Shown here: in pieces, positions 178 to 8,933 of the stretch
Layout: every line of letters begins with the position of its first letter
Numbering within the stretch: the first letter of the stretch is position 1
Assembly: GCA_021850095.1 (NCBI GenBank)
Contig: JAJZRX010000010.1
Location: 1 to 64,000, forward strand
Length of the DNA: 64,000 nucleotides
Reading direction: 5' to 3'
Origin: Deltaproteobacteria bacterium
GTDB taxonomy: Bacteria > Desulfobacterota > Desulfuromonadia > Geobacterales > Pseudopelobacteraceae
The notes under the pieces: generated by a model
The model's input: the letters and a program-made list of their open reading frames with translations, nothing else
Database searches by the model: none
Told to the model about the DNA's origin: nothing
Translations under genes and position numbers: made by a program

Positions 178-1821
178 ATGCACCTCAGCAGGAACCATAC
201 CGTCACAATAGCTCTGTCAGCAGGCCTGATCTGTCTTTTGCTGTACCTGCGGGCGCTTTCCTGTGACTTTGTCAATTTTGACGACCCCGATTATGTCATC
301 GAAAATCCAGCCATCAGAATCCTGGACTGGCAATTTCTCACCGAGGCTTTCTCCACATCCTACATGGGCTGGTGGATGCCGTTGACCTGGATCTCCCTGG
401 CGATTGATTACAACTTCTGGGGCCTGAATGCGCTGGGTTTCCATCTGACCAATATCCTGTTGCATGCTATCAACACCGCCCTGGTAGTGCTGATTGCCGA
501 CCGGCTGTTGAGGCAGGTAATGGAAAGCGAAGCGGATCAGAACAGCAGAGGATCCTACCTGTACCCGGCGACACTTCTGTTGGCGGGACTGCTCTGGGGA
601 ATTCATCCACTGCGGGTGGAGTCGGTGGCCTGGGTAACGGAAAGAAAGGATGTACTGAACGGCATTTTTTCGCTTGGTTCAATACTGTGCTACCTGTGCT
701 ATGCGCACAAGAAAGAATCAGCTGAACAAAACAATGGGGCGATCAGGGATTATATACTGTCGCTGGTTTTACTTCTGTTGTCGCTGATGGCCAAGCCGGT
801 CAGCGTTGTTATACCGGCGATGCTGCTGGTGGCGGACTGGTATCCGCTGGGGCGCTTGCAAAGGGGGAGAATTGTGGCAGTCCTGATCGAAAAAATCCCC
901 TTTCTGGTTCTTTCCGCGTCACTGTCCATCGCCACCGTGCATTTTGCTTCCGATGCCACCATCCTGGTTTCATTTCAGGATTTTCCACTGGCAAAAAGAG
1001 TTGTTTTGGCCGGTAACTCCATTTTTGAGTACGTCAGCCTGAGCGTTTATCCGGTCGGCATCACCCATTTGTATCTGCTGCCGCGAGTTTTCCCGGTTTC
1101 ATACTATTTGGCAATGGCGCTAGCCATCTCCTTCACCATTTTCTGTATCTGTAACTACAAGAAAAGACCCTGGCTGTTCGCAACCTGGCTGGCTTTTATT
1201 CTTCCACTATTACCCGTTCTGGGGTTCCTCCAAAACGGGGCCCAGGCCTATGCCGCACGCTTTACCTATCTTCCGGCAGTCGCCCCCAGCATTGCCGTAG
1301 CGGCCATTATTGCCGCACTATACAGAAAATCAGCTTCAATACCCGCTCGTTTTGCACGAAATATTTTTATTTGCCTGGTCGCGGTTCTGCTATTGTTTTA
1401 TGGAACGACGACGGTAAAACTCATCGGCTCTTGGAAGAATTCGGCAACGCTGTGGTCCAGAAGCATTGATATCCAACCCTCAGGAAGAGCATTCTATTTT
1501 CGGGGAGATTATTACCTGCAAAAAGGGAAATATCTCGCTGCGGCGGAAGATTTGTCTGTTTCCATTCGTATGGGGCAAGAGGCCGGATTCCCCGGGCTGT
1601 TCAATCTGCATGCTCTTCGCGGCGATGCACTCAGCAAGGCCAGGCACTATGAAGAAGCGGTTAAGGAATTCACTTCTGCAATCCAGTTAAATCCGTTTCC
1701 TAACTATTTCTATCACCGTTGGCTTGCATTGAAGGCCTTGGGGAATTTAAAAGCGTCAGAAGAGGATTTCAAGCAGGCGGGGACGGAAACCGGACCGATA
1801 ACGTGGCAGCCGTTTCAATAA
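178..1821 (+). CDS. TMTC-like multi-pass membrane protein with C-terminal TPRs
   Basis: The 547-residue product has an N-terminal hydrophobic segment and many further membrane helices to about residue 440, followed by about three TPR-like repeats to the end. The motif FDDPDYV near residues 34-40 and the stretch [16 protein letters not shown] are typical of the TMTC/O-mannosyltransferase-like TPR family, whose members are GT-C-fold glycosyltransferases using lipid-linked sugars. The ATG at 178 is preferred because GGAG lies just upstream and it gives a normal membrane start; an earlier GTG at 121 is in frame. The next gene, a GT2 transferase, begins 2 nt after the stop, suggesting that it supplies a lipid-linked sugar donor. 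Family assignment is fairly secure; the acceptor is unknown. Confidence 0.75.
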
Positions 1822-1823
1822 AT

Positions 1824-2588
1824 ATGACCATTCAATCTGCCATCGGGAATTCTGACAGTATGAATCCAGCTCATTCAGAACCGGCCGCACAGGCTCATCA
1901 ACCGAGGATTTCTGTCGTCATCCCGGTCTTCAACGAGGCACATTTCCTGGTGGAAACAATCGCAAGAATCCAGGCTTCCGGTGTGACGTCGGAACTCGTT
2001 GTCGTTGATGATGGTTCCAGCGACGGCACGCGCGAGATCCTGCAGGGATTCAAAAACACTCCGGGGTTGATAGCAATTCACCACGACCTCAACCGGGGCA
2101 AGGGAAAGGCGCTCAAAACCGGTTTCGATGTTTGTACTGGTGATGTGATCATCATTCAGGACGCAGACCTTGAATACGACCCCCGCGACTACCCGAAACT
2201 GCTCGGCCCGATCCTGGATGGAAAGGCAGACGTGGTTTACGGCTCGCGTATGACCGGAGACGGGCCGCACCGGATCATGTATTTCTGGCACATGCAGGGA
2301 AACAAGTTTCTGACGCTGTTGTCGAACATGCTCACAAATCCTAATCTTACCGACATGGAAACCGGCTACAAAGCCTTCACCCGTGACGTATTATCAAAAC
2401 TGGTTCTGGTCGAGAATCGTTTCGGATTCGAACCGGAGTTCACCGCCAAAGTATCCCGTATCGGAGCCAGAATCTACGAAGTCGGCATTTCCTATACCGG
2501 CCGTACCTACGCCGAGGGGAAAAAAATTACGTGGCGTGACGGCATCTGGGCCATCTGGTGTATTTTCCGGTATAACATGTTCCGCTAG
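1824..2588 (+). CDS. Family 2 glycosyltransferase (DPM1/GtrB-like)
   Basis: This 254-residue GT-A enzyme probably transfers a hexose from a nucleotide sugar to a polyprenyl phosphate. Visible motifs are VVIPVFNEA near the start, [11 protein letters not shown] (nucleotide binding), a [15 protein letters not shown] stretch holding the metal-binding DxD-type site, VYGSRM and ETGYKAF. No C-terminal membrane helices are seen, so it resembles the soluble DPM1-type form. The ATG at 1824 follows the preceding stop by 2 nt; an ATG at 1860 is an alternative because the first residues are Ser/Ala/Gln-rich and not conserved. It is co-transcribed with the TMTC-like gene. A second DPM1-like gene lies at 44508-45230. 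Confidence 0.85.
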
Positions 2589-2628
2589 TAAGTTTGCCTT
2601 AAGTCTCAGCGGCAGGTTGGTTCCGTTG

Positions 2629-2688
2629 TTTAGAGTTTAGAAATTACGAAAAATTTATAAGCGGGCAGCTGCCCCCAAAAACTCTAAA
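2629..2688. repeat. 10-bp inverted repeat enclosing a 12-bp palindrome
   Basis: TTTAGAGTTT (2629-2638) is matched perfectly by AAACTCTAAA (2679-2688), and the spacer contains the perfect palindrome GGGCAGCTGCCC (2663-2674). The structure ends 4 nt before the sigma-54 promoter candidate. It could be a binding site for an enhancer-binding protein or a terminator-like stem for the upstream pair, although no clean T-tract follows it. Confidence 0.55.
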
Positions 2689-2691
2689 ACT

Positions 2692-2707
2692 TGGCACAAG
2701 TTGTGCT
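2692..2707 (+). promoter_or_regulatory. Sigma-54 (-24/-12) promoter candidate for the radical SAM operon
   Basis: TGGCAC-N5-GTGCT has the GG-N10-GC spacing diagnostic of RpoN promoters and lies about 46 bp before the ATG at 2754. Transcription would start near 2719. An AGGA ribosome-binding site at 2746-2750 follows. The match differs from the TTGC consensus of the -12 box by one base. Confidence 0.6.
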
Positions 2708-2753
2708 TTAGTTGTTCGGTTGGGCAACCCTTGTTTGTGTGCCATGAGGATTT

Positions 2754-3758
2754 ATGTATTCACTAGATAAAATCAGCGAAAATAGAGGAAGCGAACTGGA
2801 TCTAATCGAGTTACTTACGGCGACAGGAGACCTACAGCAGGAATTGTTCGCACGAGCACGAGAAGTGCGGCGGCAACACCATGGAGATAAAGTCCTGCTC
2901 CGAGCCGTCATCGAAATATCCAGTCACTGCCAAAAAAACTGCAGCTATTGTACCATGCGTTCCGCCAACAAATCCCTTGACCGGTATTCGCTCCATCCCG
3001 AAGAAATACTTGCCTTGGCAGAGAGCATCAATAGTGCGGGGCTTGAGACCGTTTTCCTGCAGGGGGGGCAAAATCCCTGCAATGATCACTACCTTGAACA
3101 GGTGATTCCCGTCATCAAGCATGATATGAACCTGGAGGTACTGCTGTGCCTGGGAGAACGTCCCAAATCCGTATATGAGAAATTTGCTCGGCTGGGAGCG
3201 AATTCATATATCCTCAAATTCGAGACCTCTGACCCGGAACTCTATCAGAAAATTGCCCAGGTATCCCTGGCCGACAGGCTGCAGTGCATTTCCCGGATCA
3301 AGGAAGCAGGCCTAAAGCTCGGCACGGGAAACATCATAGGCCTGCCGATGCAGACCTTGAACACCATTGTCGAGGATATCAAGCTCGCCCTCAAGATCCA
3401 ACCCGATTTCATCAGTTGCTCCCCCTTTACACCGGGCGGTAACACACCCTTTCAGCACTTTCCCGCCGGCGGTCTTTCCCTGACACTCAACACAATGGCG
3501 ATCTATCGGATTCTCCTGCCATCCGCTCTTATCCCGTCAGTCAGCGCCCTGGAAACGCTCCAAAAAGGAGGACAGCGAATGGGTTTGGATGCCGGAGCCA
3601 ATGTCATGACGATCAATTTTACCCCCAGAGAAAAGCGGGAGTTATACAAAATCTATACCGAGCAGCGCTTTGTCGTCAGCCTTGATCATGCACAGCAGAC
3701 TGCTGAAAAAGCCGGACTACGTATCCGAGAGCGCACTCACGCCAGTCACCAGGCATGA
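2754..3758 (+). CDS. Radical SAM enzyme, BioB/HydE/PylB-like
   Basis: The 334-residue protein carries a CX3CX2C cluster motif at C59, C63 and C66 (CQKNCSYC), which binds the [4Fe-4S] that cleaves S-adenosylmethionine. The LHPEEILALAESINSAG and FLQGGQNP stretches and the C-terminal half fit the biotin synthase/HydE/PylB branch with a BATS-like barrel end. HydF and HydG are not in the window, so hydrogenase maturation is not supported, and the biotin synthase neighbours are also missing. It starts at ATG 2754 behind AGGA and overlaps the next gene in ATGA. Its operon contains a second, HemN-like radical SAM enzyme, a transporter and an exported methyltransferase, suggesting a small-molecule modification pathway. 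The substrate is unknown. Confidence 0.8.
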   Translation: MYSLDKISENRGSELDLIELLTATGDLQQELFARAREVRRQHHGDKVLLRAVIEISSHCQKNCSYCTMRSANKSLDRYSLHPEEILALAESINSAGLETVFLQGGQNPCNDHYLEQVIPVIKHDMNLEVLLCLGERPKSVYEKFARLGANSYILKFETSDPELYQKIAQVSLADRLQCISRIKEAGLKLGTGNIIGLPMQTLNTIVEDIKLALKIQPDFISCSPFTPGGNTPFQHFPAGGLSLTLNTMAIYRILLPSALIPSVSALETLQKGGQRMGLDAGANVMTINFTPREKRELYKIYTEQRFVVSLDHAQQTAEKAGLRIRERTHASHQA

Positions 3759-4648
3759 TCGACTCGAACACAATCGGTATACTCGCCGCTCTTGGCTCGG
3801 CAGCCTCGTGGTCCATCGGTGCGGTGCTGTTCAAGCAGCTGGGAGAATCGCTTTCATCCTTTGCCATGACCCTGATAAAGGGAGCGGTGAGCGTCGTGCT
3901 CCTGGGACTCGCAACCCTTTTGGTCGGCGGGTTTGCGAACATCGGCATGGATGCCTATCTCTATCTCATCCTGAGCGGGATACTGGGGGTTGCCCTGTCA
4001 GACACCTTCTTTTTCAGCGCCCTGAAAGAGGTCAGTCCCCAGGCGCTTACCCTCCTGCTCACCTTCGGACAGGTACTTACGACGCTTCTTGCGGTGCTCA
4101 TGCTGGGAGAGACGCTTCCCCCGCTGGGATGGGCGGGCATTGCAATCATCATCACCGGTATCACCATTGGCATGTTCCAGAGTTTTGCGGACAAAGGACA
4201 TTCATCCTTACGCGGCATTCTTTTTGGCCTCATTTCCGTTCTAGCCATGTCGGTCGCGGCCATATTGACGAAGAAAGGGCTGCATGACACGTCCACCCTC
4301 CATGCCACCTTCATACGGATGCTGGCAGGTACGGTCGGGATGCTCCTGGCAGGGATCGCGACAAGGAGACTGGGGGGCTGGGTGTCGCCATTCCGGGATA
4401 TACGACTGATATGTAAGTTCACCCTCTCCGTCTTTGTCATCACCTTTGGCGGTTTCTGGCTGGCGATCGTCGCCTTCAAGTATACGAGCGTCGTGGTGGC
4501 CAACAGCCTGATTGCCACTGAGCCGATTTTTGTCCTCCCCATGGCGGCTATTTTTCTCAAAGAAAAGGTGACACTCCATGCGGCAGCGGGAGCGGTAATC
4601 GCTACCGTGGGAGTAATTATCCTTTGTACGAGCGGTATCGTCACATAA
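3755..4648 (+). CDS. EamA/DMT-family transporter
   Basis: The 297-residue product shows the duplicated five-helix pattern of the drug/metabolite transporter superfamily: an N-terminal ALGSAASWSIGAVLFK segment, a repeat break near residue 145, and ATEPIFVLPMAAIFLKEKVT close to the end, a hallmark of EamA domains. It probably exports a small polar compound across the inner membrane. The ATG overlaps the preceding stop (ATGA), so translation is coupled to the radical SAM gene. Within this operon it is the natural candidate for moving the pathway's product or precursor, but this is inferred from position only. Confidence 0.88.
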   Translation: MIDSNTIGILAALGSAASWSIGAVLFKQLGESLSSFAMTLIKGAVSVVLLGLATLLVGGFANIGMDAYLYLILSGILGVALSDTFFFSALKEVSPQALTLLLTFGQVLTTLLAVLMLGETLPPLGWAGIAIIITGITIGMFQSFADKGHSSLRGILFGLISVLAMSVAAILTKKGLHDTSTLHATFIRMLAGTVGMLLAGIATRRLGGWVSPFRDIRLICKFTLSVFVITFGGFWLAIVAFKYTSVVVANSLIATEPIFVLPMAAIFLKEKVTLHAAAGAVIATVGVIILCTSGIVT

Positions 4649-4731
4649 GGGGCATGACCGTAAAACGGCTGGCGCTGCATCCGGGCACCTCATGCCTCAC
4701 CCAAGATTTGTGGCGTGAAAGGAATCTTTCT

Positions 4732-6168
4732 ATGGCTGACAAGCTGAAGACCGACAGGTTGGAATTGATCGCGAAATCCCAGCAGTTCATGGGTCAGTAC
4801 CACAAACTAAAAGAAGCCGGATTCATCAGCCGCAGGGGGGATTTCTTCCCATCGGTTCACTATCCGCCTATCACTATGTACCCGCGTGCCACTCAAACCG
4901 ATCTCTTCCATTCGTATAAACTCCCACATGATCGTTTATTTGATGTCTATGCCCATCTCCCGTTCTGCCAGCAGCGCTGCCTATTTTGCCACTATCCGGT
5001 AAGACTGGGCAACAGGGACAGCGAAAAAGATATTTATCTGAATGCCCTGGAAAAGGAAATGGATCTCTATCTACAGGTTCTCGGGCTCCGGCAGGTAAAA
5101 ACCAGATCAATTCTTGTCGGTGGGGGGACCCCAACATTTCTCTCTCCGGCACAACTGAAAAGGTTTCTCGGTTTCTTCGTCAAGCGGCTTGACATATCCA
5201 GGTGCGAGCAGTTCAACTACGATGTCGATCCAACCACGCTGATAGGTAGCGACGGCAGGGAACGATTGTGCATACTGCGCGATCATGGTGTAAACCGATT
5301 GACCATTGGCGTCCAATCGTTGAATGACCAGACGCTTGCCAACATGAATCGGCACCACACCGTTGCCGAATCGCTTAAATCCATCGAAGAGTCTCGAAAA
5401 CTTGGTTTCAAACTGAATATCGAGTTTATCTTTGGCTATCCCGGCCAAACCCTTGCAAGCTGGCTCGATGACATTGAAATGGCGATGACCCTTGATGTCG
5501 ACGAGATTCAGCTCTACCGGTTGAAGGTCGGGGCCTATGGTGATTACCAGGGACCGATACGGGATTTGATTGAAAAGAGATCAGTTAACGCATTGGATGA
5601 CGATGAAACCCTATCGATGAAAAAAACGGCGATCGACCTGCTCGCCAGTAATGGGTTTAAAGAGAACATTAGGAGGGTGTTCAGCAGAACCGTGAATGAT
5701 TACTCTCGCTATGCCTGGAACCAGTGTTGTCTGTTATATGACCAGATTGGCTTCGGTTTAACGGCGTTCAGCAGCCTGCGGGACCGCTTTGTCTTGAACA
5801 CCCAGAGCTTTGATGAGTACTACGCGATGATTGCAGATGGAAAACTTCCCGTCAACCGGGGCCTCGTCAGGAGCAGGGAGGAACAGATGCGCTGGGGGAT
5901 GATCCTTCCTCTCAAGAACAGCTTTGTGCTGAAAAGCAGATTCCAGGAAGTCACCGGAGGGTCAATCGAGTTTTTCCGAGATACTATCGAGAAATTGAAA
6001 CAGTATGACCTGCTGGTGGAGGATGATATGAAAGTGCAAACAACACCGTTGGGAGCGTTTTTTGCTGACGAAGTCGTACAGCAGTTTCATAATGCCGAGT
6101 ATATCCCCTTTCCTTGTGACGATTATGCGCCGGGGCCAGTCAATCCTTACTGCGGACAGCAGTCATGA
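4732..6168 (+). CDS. HemN/HutW-like radical SAM enzyme
   Basis: The 478-residue protein has the CX3CX2C motif at C79, C83 and C86 (CQQRCLFC) after AHLPF, the GGGTPTFL motif near residue 131, and NRLTIGVQSLND, all typical of coproporphyrinogen dehydrogenase-like radical SAM proteins. A YAWNQCCLLYDQIGFG segment occupies the region where HemN proteins have their substrate-side motif but is not identical to it. A winged-helix-like tail follows. The family also includes HutW/ChuW haem-degrading methyltransferases, so the product could be a tetrapyrrole modifier. The ATG at 4732 has GAAAGGAA well placed upstream; earlier in-frame starts at 4624 and 4654 overlap the transporter gene or have a poorer site. 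Confidence 0.78.
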   Translation: MADKLKTDRLELIAKSQQFMGQYHKLKEAGFISRRGDFFPSVHYPPITMYPRATQTDLFHSYKLPHDRLFDVYAHLPFCQQRCLFCHYPVRLGNRDSEKDIYLNALEKEMDLYLQVLGLRQVKTRSILVGGGTPTFLSPAQLKRFLGFFVKRLDISRCEQFNYDVDPTTLIGSDGRERLCILRDHGVNRLTIGVQSLNDQTLANMNRHHTVAESLKSIEESRKLGFKLNIEFIFGYPGQTLASWLDDIEMAMTLDVDEIQLYRLKVGAYGDYQGPIRDLIEKRSVNALDDDETLSMKKTAIDLLASNGFKENIRRVFSRTVNDYSRYAWNQCCLLYDQIGFGLTAFSSLRDRFVLNTQSFDEYYAMIADGKLPVNRGLVRSREEQMRWGMILPLKNSFVLKSRFQEVTGGSIEFFRDTIEKLKQYDLLVEDDMKVQTTPLGAFFADEVVQQFHNAEYIPFPCDDYAPGPVNPYCGQQS

Positions 6169-6200
6169 AAGGCGTGGACCGAACACGACTGGAGTTCAGT

Positions 6201-8048
6201 ATGCCACCAAAGATAATCCAGCCCATGATGACTCTCATTGGTCTCATGATTCTTGTGCTGTTGTTTGCACCATCTGCCCATGCCGCCGGCAAAACGACGG
6301 TAGGAGGGAGAGTTGTCACAGATGCCGGTCCCTTCAACGGAGCCAAGGTCCATGCCTACGCAACCTACGGCGACATCAGTGGTGGGGGCAAAGCCATCGC
6401 ATCCGCCGACTGCGACAAACGCGGTTCCTACAGTTTCAGACTACCAAAGGGGGAGTACTACTTCGTGGCGAGGGGTCATCTGAAAGGGAAGGAGTTCTTC
6501 GCCTTTCACGGCAACAACCCCATAAAGGTGGATACCGGGGAAAACACATGGATTGCCTTGCTGGCCACCGAGGTCAAGCAACCGGTTTACACGGAAGGGG
6601 AATCGGCACTCACCGGTATAGTCACCTACAAGGGTAAGCCCCTAACAGAAGGGGAAGTCACCCTTTACAAGCCGGATACCAAATTCAAGGGTCCCGGGGT
6701 ACAGATGGAATCGTTGGCGGATGATGGAACCTTCCGGCTCAACGTTCCCGTAGGTAACTATGTTGTGATCGCCAGAAAGAGAGATGGGGCAAAGGGAAAC
6801 CGGCCGCTGAAGAATGGGGAGTTGTTCTGTTATTACCCCGTAAACCCGGTAGAAGTCCGCAAAAGCAAGACAACCCAGATTGAGGTCCCGTGCTATCCCA
6901 AGGATGATCGAAATGCGTTTGTCGATACGGCACAGATAAAGCCTGGCTCGTTCAAGACCATTGACAACCTGGCGACCGGTGTCACCAATGGCATCAGAGG
7001 TCGTGTGACCGGCCAGGACGGCAAACCAGCGGAGGGGTTGCTAGTACTTGCCTTCCGTGCTTTCAAGCCGAATTTCCTGACCCATTACCTCAGTCAAGGC
7101 GCCGATTACTGGACCGAGACGGGCGCCGATGGCTCCTATCTCATTCCGGTTGATATCTCGGGGGACTACTATATTGTCGCAAGGGAAACCCTCGGCGGAA
7201 TCCCTCAAACCGGGGAACTGTACGGCCTCTTCAATGGAAACAGCAGGCATGCCGTAACCTATGAAAAGAGCAAAGTGCTGGATAACGTCAACCTCACCGT
7301 CACCATGATGGCGGACAAGCAGGTTTTTAATGTTCTGCCAACACCGGCAAATGAGAGGGTGTCATCCCCCTCGGGGAACGACCACGGCGACACCAACGCT
7401 CAAATTGAGGGGCGGAGCGTTGCCCATAAGAGCCAAGAGCAAAAAAAGTCGGGTTCAGAAGGTCAGTGGTTGAACAGCCTGACAACCGAAGGCAATATCC
7501 AGTACCTGGAAGCAGAAAGCAGAAAAGAGTGGTTGAAGCCGGAAGAGATCGTCGAGCAGTTGTTTATCAAGCCCGGCGAGACCATTGCCGACCTTGGTTC
7601 AGGCACAGGCTCTTTTTCGACCCTGCTCGCCAGAAAAACTGGCAAGAAGGGGCTTGTCTATGCTGTCGATATTGAGCCGGAGATGGTTGAATATCTGGAG
7701 AAACGAGCATCCAAAGAGGGTCTGGACAACATCAGAAGCATTTTGGGCAAGCCGAACGACCCTCTGTTACCGCCTGCCTCCGCTGATCTGGTCTTAATGT
7801 TCAACATTTATCCCGCAATTGATAACCGCGTCCAATATCTGGCCCGAGCGAAGGAAATCCTCAAAAAAAACGGCCGATTGGCTCTCATCTCCTATACCAT
7901 GGCAGAGACGCCAGACGGGCGCCCCCCCATGCACAGGCGGATATCCAGAGATGTGGCAGTACAGGAGGCAGTAAAGGCGGGATTAAAACTGTATGCGGAG
8001 TATTTTTTCTTACCGTATCATTATTTTCTGATTTTTGAAAAACGCTGA
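6201..8048 (+). CDS. Exported carboxypeptidase-regulatory-like repeats fused to a SAM methyltransferase
   Basis: The 615-residue product has a signal peptide (hydrophobic TLIGLMILVLLFA, cleavage near residue 28). Three or more beta-sandwich repeats of the carboxypeptidase-regulatory type follow, each with GSYSFRLPKGEYYFVA-like or DGTFRLNVPVGNYVV-like cores. From about residue 430 a class I methyltransferase domain follows, with motif I DLGSGTGSFS near residue 463, then AVDIEPEM and a late RLALISYT strand. Methyltransferases normally act where SAM is made, so a secreted one is odd. ATG 6201 has TGGAG upstream; an in-frame ATG at 6165 overlaps the previous stop (ATGA) and would only lengthen the signal peptide's basic end. 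It is the last gene of the operon. Confidence 0.8.
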   Translation: MPPKIIQPMMTLIGLMILVLLFAPSAHAAGKTTVGGRVVTDAGPFNGAKVHAYATYGDISGGGKAIASADCDKRGSYSFRLPKGEYYFVARGHLKGKEFFAFHGNNPIKVDTGENTWIALLATEVKQPVYTEGESALTGIVTYKGKPLTEGEVTLYKPDTKFKGPGVQMESLADDGTFRLNVPVGNYVVIARKRDGAKGNRPLKNGELFCYYPVNPVEVRKSKTTQIEVPCYPKDDRNAFVDTAQIKPGSFKTIDNLATGVTNGIRGRVTGQDGKPAEGLLVLAFRAFKPNFLTHYLSQGADYWTETGADGSYLIPVDISGDYYIVARETLGGIPQTGELYGLFNGNSRHAVTYEKSKVLDNVNLTVTMMADKQVFNVLPTPANERVSSPSGNDHGDTNAQIEGRSVAHKSQEQKKSGSEGQWLNSLTTEGNIQYLEAESRKEWLKPEEIVEQLFIKPGETIADLGSGTGSFSTLLARKTGKKGLVYAVDIEPEMVEYLEKRASKEGLDNIRSILGKPNDPLLPPASADLVLMFNIYPAIDNRVQYLARAKEILKKNGRLALISYTMAETPDGRPPMHRRISRDVAVQEAVKAGLKLYAEYFFLPYHYFLIFEKR

Positions 8049-8060
8049 GATGCCAAGTGA

Positions 8061-8933
8061 TTATTGTGCCTGCAAGTTCCGGATGTTTTTCCAAACCTTT
8101 TCATGTGGCGGTGGTGGGGATGTGGCTTCAGAGCCTGATCCAGGCCTGCTGAATTTAATGACGTTCAAGACAACCCCCTTCAATTTTTGGTGTTTTTCAA
8201 GAGACACCTTCAGAGGTTTGAATTCATTGGTGATATTGAGAAACTCACCTTCCTGGGGTTTACCTCCTCCATAAACGCTTCTCACTTTAAGATAAAACGT
8301 CCCGCCATCATGGACACGCAACATATATTTCCCATTTTTGTCACTTCTCTCCGAAACAAACGTCGGTCTTCCGGTCGCTACCTCTGAAAGATAACCAAAG
8401 ACGAGCGCTTTCTCAACTGGATTTCCCTTGTTGTCAAGGATAATCCCTTCGATTGAAGTGATGTCTTTAGTGAGCTCAGCCATACTTGGCTCAAAAAGAA
8501 ACGCATTCAGTATGCCGAGGTCGTGGGTGCTGGTGGTGATAGTTATTGGAAGCAGCTTTCCATGGGCATCTTTGTGAGAATAAAAATAATCACTCTCCTG
8601 GGGCGGCCCTATTTCACCATCAGGCTTTTTCTGGGCAACCTGCAAATAGTAGACGCCTTTGGGAACCCGTATTGCAAATCTTCCATTGCTGTCAGTCCCG
8701 GTTATCATGTCTGGAACCCGCCAGTATCTGGTAGAAGGAGGGGGTCCCAGAGTTTTATCGTATAGCAAAACAACTCCGGTAACCATTGGGGCTTTGTCCT
8801 TGATGAGCACCTGGCCTGAAATGGTACCGTTACTGTCCATTGAAGACACAGTTGCATCCAGAGTTGTGGATGTTTCAGAGTAGGTGGGGACTGCTGCTAA
8901 AACAAACAGGAGTATCAGTTTAAACAGTTTCAT
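8061..8933 (-). CDS. Exported carboxypeptidase-regulatory-like repeat protein
   Basis: The 290-residue product begins with a clear signal peptide (LFKLILLFVLAAVPTYS, cleavage near residue 20). It has two beta-sandwich repeats: GTISGQVLIKDKAP with GRFAIRVPKGVYYLQVA, and SIEGIILDNKGNPVEKALVFGY with GKYMLRVHDGGTFYLKVR. These match the repeats in the convergent methyltransferase fusion, whose stop lies only 12 nt from this stop. Such domains are usually structural or ligand-binding. The C-terminus is charged and has no membrane anchor. It is probably a periplasmic or surface partner of the neighbouring operon, although it is transcribed separately. Confidence 0.72.
   Translation of the reverse strand: MKLFKLILLFVLAAVPTYSETSTTLDATVSSMDSNGTISGQVLIKDKAPMVTGVVLLYDKTLGPPPSTRYWRVPDMITGTDSNGRFAIRVPKGVYYLQVAQKKPDGEIGPPQESDYFYSHKDAHGKLLPITITTSTHDLGILNAFLFEPSMAELTKDITSIEGIILDNKGNPVEKALVFGYLSEVATGRPTFVSERSDKNGKYMLRVHDGGTFYLKVRSVYGGGKPQEGEFLNITNEFKPLKVSLEKHQKLKGVVLNVIKFSRPGSGSEATSPPPPHEKVWKNIRNLQAQ

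Follow-up and report, generated by a model that had tools for sequence, protein, structure and literature searches.

A compact set of four genes in the window, the 64,000-nucleotide stretch of a Geobacterales genome (G000, 90% complete) analysed here, very probably encodes a single, undescribed pathway whose first steps are cytoplasmic and whose last lies outside the cytoplasm. The genes encode a HydE-like radical SAM enzyme, an EamA transporter, a HemN-like radical SAM enzyme and an exported methyltransferase. They almost certainly work together, and form a real, conserved but sparse pathway unit that has probably spread horizontally. The best reading is the one proposed from the DNA letters, an undescribed pathway whose last step is extracytoplasmic, because the unit is conserved and matches no curated family at equivalog level, and no description of the gene set was found in the literature searched. 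If this reading is true, an undescribed metabolite pathway is present across distant phyla, including on a conjugative plasmid of a peanut-associated Bradyrhizobium, and uses a relative of HydE without a role in hydrogenase maturation. It would also make testable how a methyltransferase works beyond the cytoplasm, in a place with no known supply of SAM.

The four packed, same-strand genes claimed earlier were all found as open reading frames on the forward strand between 2754 and 8048, and the claimed domains were borne out as well (Radical_SAM in the first and third proteins, two EamA repeats in the second, and CarboxypepD_reg together with Methyltransf_31/25/11 in the fourth). The HydE-like and EamA genes overlap by 4 bp, 83 bp separate the EamA and HemN-like genes, and the HemN-like and methyltransferase genes again overlap by 4 bp; translational coupling is thus probable within each of the two overlapping pairs. 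The features of the window and the gene content of the related loci are presented in Table 1. In the sister genome, paralogous exported CarboxypepD_reg-like proteins lie on both sides of the cluster (8061-8933 in the window; 2112-3038 in L080).

Table 1 Cluster features in the window and gene content of related loci
Feature or locus	Position	Strand	Details
Window: candidate sigma-54 -24/-12 element or dyad operator	2692..2707	+	TGGCACAAGTTGTGCT
Window: HydE-like radical SAM enzyme, probable clade apart from HydE	2754..3758	+	CX3CX2C at C59, C63, C66
Window: EamA/DMT inner-membrane transporter	3755..4648	+	PF00892 x2
Window: HemN-like radical SAM enzyme, marker gene for the cluster	4732..6168	+	Radical_SAM domain
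Window: signal peptide, CarboxypepD_reg-type region and class I SAM-dependent methyltransferase domain (residues ~453-627)	6165..8048	+	
Window: CarboxypepD_reg-like exported protein, convergent; possible accessory, membership uncertain	8061..8933	-	still adjoins the cluster in L080
L080 (DBMM01000071.1, genome G509; sister, 91-93% identical)			gene order as in the window
L079, L095 (Geobacterales)			exported LTXXQ-like protein, HydE-like, exported methyltransferase, EamA, HemN-like
L096 (Geobacterales)			methyltransferase, EamA, HemN-like; contig ends inside cluster
L082 (Verrucomicrobia MAG)			EamA, HydE-like, HemN-like overlapping; double exported methyltransferase nearby on opposite strand
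L087 (distant class of the phylum)			CarboxypepD_reg protein, methyltransferase, HemN-like, EamA
L086 (distant class of the phylum)			methyltransferase, EamA, ABC importer, HemN-like
L098 (conjugative plasmid, Bradyrhizobium sp. ISRA443)			methyltransferase, EamA, MacB-type ABC, amino-acid ABC, HydE-like, HemN-like
L097 (IMG/VR contig)			HydE-like and HemN-like adjacent
L081 (DYOB01000104.1, sulfur-cave MAG)			EamA, HemN-like, MacA-MacB-TolC

With the HemN-like gene as the marker for the cluster, surveys of other genomes showed a sparse distribution, which suggests horizontal spread: the marker was found in 5 of 277 genomes of the class, in 5 of 141 genomes of the order (4 of 29 genera), and at high similarity in 2 of the 37 genomes of the window's genus, while a sample of the phylum gave 3 of 395. 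One scan of 84,980 species genomes with the same marker gave four loci. Cluster gene sets were seen in other Geobacterales, in a distant class of the same phylum, in a Verrucomicrobia MAG and on a Bradyrhizobium plasmid, that is, in at least three phyla, and gene order and methyltransferase type differ between the copies. Conserved linkage in Geobacterales, the check proposed for the pathway idea, was therefore positive, with the same gene sets in relatives and a variable order. We also looked for signs that the genes are not together in relatives, or that each belongs to a different known route, and found neither, though the set is missing from most close relatives. The HydE-like gene was not found in L086 or L087, the two genomes of the distant class, and the core can therefore do without it. 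The L081 record is titled Borreliella garinii, a label that is surely wrong.

In a search of 72,556 plasmid records, Bradyrhizobium was matched at 56% identity by the HemN-like query (other genera listed, 28% at most), at 45% by the EamA query (31% for the next), and at 48% along most of the protein by the L079 methyltransferase query (31% over half for the next). All three best matches fall on one 13-kb Bradyrhizobium segment, which contains all four parts of the cluster with a MacB-type ABC exporter and an amino-acid ABC importer lying between them. Given that three separate queries meet on one plasmid segment, chance linkage was set aside. A wider scan of viral contigs gave no further cluster and only distant HemN-like relatives, known by protein match alone. 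Exported LTXXQ-like proteins lie upstream of the cluster in L079 (3815-4540), L095 (8460-9236) and L098 (2953-3702), form a fifth component in several copies, and are homologous between Geobacterales and Bradyrhizobium (E ~1e-8).

The first radical SAM enzyme had been labelled BioB/HydE/PylB-like, and NCBIfam scores showed this to be correct, with HydE as the nearest family. Like HydE (TIGR03956; PDB 3ciw and 5few), it possesses a CX3CX2C radical SAM domain, in which C59, C63 and C66 are invariant, and the identity to the best HydE proteins is 35-39% over about 290 residues. However, the window protein narrowly missed the curated cut-off of TIGR03956 (248.2 against 254.6 bits), and the other cluster copies scored 166-224 bits, clearly below it, while four true HydE controls scored 308-506. 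The residues TT (in P-x-T-T) and M[PFL] (before the [TS]P pair) were present in 30 of 30 HydE proteins compared and in 0 of 7 cluster proteins, all seven of which have [VIT]S[ASN]L[ED] and T[IV] or [TI][VT] at these positions. In the tree, a moderately supported branch (87/67; 85% of bootstrap trees) divided the cluster proteins from HydE. Searches of G000 found no match over the cut-off for HydG or HydF, and HydG was also not found over the cut-off in G028, G492 and G479. The sister genome G509, which holds L080, has a separate HydE-HydG-HydF set on another contig, with an aspartase-like gene between. Taken together, the cut-off, the residues, the HydG and HydF searches and the separate HydE set in G509 suggest that the cluster enzyme is a paralogue with a different substrate. 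PylB methylornithine synthase (TIGR03910) belongs to the same BioB/HydE/PylB group, but the cluster enzyme is far under its cut-off (134.5 against 348.2 bits).

An identity as H-cluster maturase was rejected, since the protein is below the HydE cut-off, lacks the HydE residues and occurs in a genome without detected HydG or HydF. It is thus very improbable that the cluster serves a divergent [FeFe]-hydrogenase maturation with a working HydE: HydE is the nearest family, TmHydE is the nearest solved structure and PF02906 matches of about 160 bits occur in G000 and its relatives, yet the absence of both residue pairs from all seven proteins, the HydG results in the four genomes, the HydF result in G000 and the distinct HydE of G509 beside HydG and HydF all speak against it. 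In G509, the HydE, HydG, aspartase-like and HydF genes and an [FeFe]-hydrogenase-like gene lie in one row (L107, G509:C79:4000-11613), a row that searches for HydG and HydF did not find in G000. Elsewhere in G000, a long 762-aa frame contains a weakly matched [FeFe]-hydrogenase large-subunit domain, at about 160 bits (L108, G000:C11 110193-110867). Proteins of this type recur in G000, G028, G492, G509 and G479, four of which gave no HydG over the cut-off.

The second radical SAM enzyme is related to HemN, HutW and HemW. Its predicted fold (mean pLDDT 73) had HemN (1olt) as the top Foldseek match, and C79, C83 and C86 of the CX3CX2C motif are invariant, together with Y73, across nine divergent HemN-like sequences. 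Y73 lies six residues ahead of the first cysteine, the position that we take Tyr56 to have in HemN. In both HemN (Y56) and NocN (Y34), this SAM-II tyrosine stacks against the second SAM (PMC12871812). Because Y73 matches it, a two-SAM reaction by the HemN-like enzyme is plausible. The cluster proteins thus share the HemN fold, the CX3CX2C motif and the SAM-II tyrosine with HemN and the class C radical SAM methylases (NocN 9p2u, C10P), but they form a family of their own, 37-93% identical to each other. The best NCBIfam match was STM4012, at 162 bits against a cut-off of 380.

The relationship to HemN, HutW and HemW is also what favours a tetrapyrrole or haem modification pathway, the origin suggested by the sequence-only reading. 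We found no support for it and consider it distinctly improbable: the equivalog cut-offs for HemN, HutW and HemW were all missed widely (150, 139 and 150 bits against 325, 400 and 205), and no tetrapyrrole genes were seen adjoining any copy. Moreover, HemN-like enzymes are diverse in function, with methylation, lactonisation and cyclopropanation among their reactions (PMC12871812).

All nine methyltransferases have an N-terminal hydrophobic signal-like segment, as judged by simple hydropathy and not by a dedicated signal-peptide predictor (the L096 copy is without its first residues), and an intact DxGxGxG motif. They belong to two types. Those of L079, L095, L096, L082 and L098 have a conserved N-terminal region, and the window-like ones of the window, L080, L086 and L087 stand alone or are fused to carboxypeptidase-regulatory-like domains; the window domain is only about 30% identical to that of L079, L095 and L082. 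The export signal common to these distinct types points to location being important. In L087, the methyltransferase is a gene of its own, overlapping a second gene that encodes the carboxypeptidase-regulatory-like part on a NosD-like beta-helix protein, and it is such a pair that appears to be fused in the window protein. For an exported methyltransferase to work, SAM itself or an adduct of it must be present outside the cytoplasm, and free SAM is not known to occur in the periplasm. Setting aside clusters truncated by a contig end, every other cluster read has a relative of the EamA protein (two PF00892 repeats, 124.9 bits), at 37-92% identity.

Amino-acid importers and MacAB-type exporters recur next to the cluster. 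In L095, a MetNIQ-type methionine importer (1460-3797, minus strand), whose permease scored over its cut-off, begins 45 bp past the HemN-like gene and is apparently co-operonic with it. The importer within L098 is of the Lys/Arg/Orn type, an APC amino-acid permease lies alongside L082 and L081, and a sulfonate/nitrate-type importer lies alongside L086; MacAB-type exporters adjoin L079, L081 and L098. The substrate of PylB is an amino acid, and relatives of HydE and PylB act on amino-acid-like substrates. From these importers and relatives we infer that the product is an amino-acid- or SAM-derived small molecule, which is a lead and not a result. A defence system was considered and rejected, as PADLOC gave a weak radical SAM match and a methyltransferase-domain-only match (mads_2).

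How the parts might act in sequence can be outlined. The HemN-like enzyme, of two-SAM type, would build a small compound in the cytoplasm, in most copies together with the HydE-like enzyme, and this compound would most likely be amino-acid- or SAM-derived. The EamA protein would carry a small molecule over the inner membrane, either the product or SAM for the methyltransferase; the exported methyltransferase would carry out the final step in the periplasm, from where MacAB-type exporters, in some copies, would pass the compound on. We give about even credence to this flow from cytoplasmic radical chemistry through EamA transfer to an extracytoplasmic methyltransferase step, and low credence to any one product. 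The retention of the genes together over long evolutionary distances, the signal-like segment and SAM motif of all nine methyltransferases, the missing HydG and HydF, the invariant SAM-II tyrosine, the amino-acid importers adjoining L095, L098 and L082 and the precedent of a SAM-transporting EamA protein in Rickettsia are consistent with it. On the other hand, the low identity between the methyltransferase domains means that the last step may differ between copies, the importer types vary by copy and could be chance neighbours, and the flow has to contend with the lack of known free periplasmic SAM. It is somewhat unlikely that the EamA protein is instead a carrier of SAM (or SAM/SAH) that feeds the exported methyltransferase, with the radical SAM enzymes in a linked but separate step. 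An EamA protein of the same transporter family is a characterised SAM transporter in Rickettsia, but it imports SAM in an intracellular parasite (PMC5615194). An exported methyltransferase lies near EamA in nearly all copies, even those without the HydE-like gene, and the methionine importer of L095 also fits a SAM supply; against this, the substrates of the EamA family are many, and the 8.9-kb contig of L081 has EamA and HemN-like genes with no methyltransferase.

A further arrangement, which we regard as rather improbable, is suggested by analogy. The HemN-like enzyme would use its second SAM to make a SAM-substrate adduct, EamA would export it, and the exported methyltransferase would resolve it in the periplasm by methylation, cyclopropanation or ring closure; a second radical modification would come from the HydE-like enzyme. 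Since the adduct would be made in the cytoplasm, no free periplasmic SAM would be needed. According to the available part of the account of CC-1065 biosynthesis, C10P and C10Q form a two-component cyclopropanase in which the methyltransferase resolves the SAM-substrate adduct (PMC6050322). The two systems, likened by enzyme type alone, share the pairing of a HemN-like radical SAM enzyme with a methyltransferase, but that part of the account mentions neither export of C10Q nor a HydE-like partner. Finally, that the genes are chance or house-keeping neighbours without a common function is scarcely credible: absence from most close relatives and the varying methyltransferase types would fit it, yet every locus read, in several phyla, has at least two of the four parts, and the three plasmid queries were independent.

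The sigma-54 control claimed for the operon could not be established. The sequence TGGCACAAGTTGTGCT at 2692 departs from TGGCAC-N5-TTGCW at a single position, and the window holds 3 such matches against 2.84 expected by chance; the site is only loosely kept in the sister locus L080, where GGGCAC replaces the -24 box, and no sigma-54-like site was found at the corresponding place in the distant clusters. The bases of this region also form the perfect dyad GCACAA-G-TTGTGC, and a putative operator is, from the letters, a reading equal to a sigma-54 site. The dyad survives ahead of the L080 operon as GCACA-N3-TGTGC (5962-5977) despite the altered -24 box, which favours an operator.
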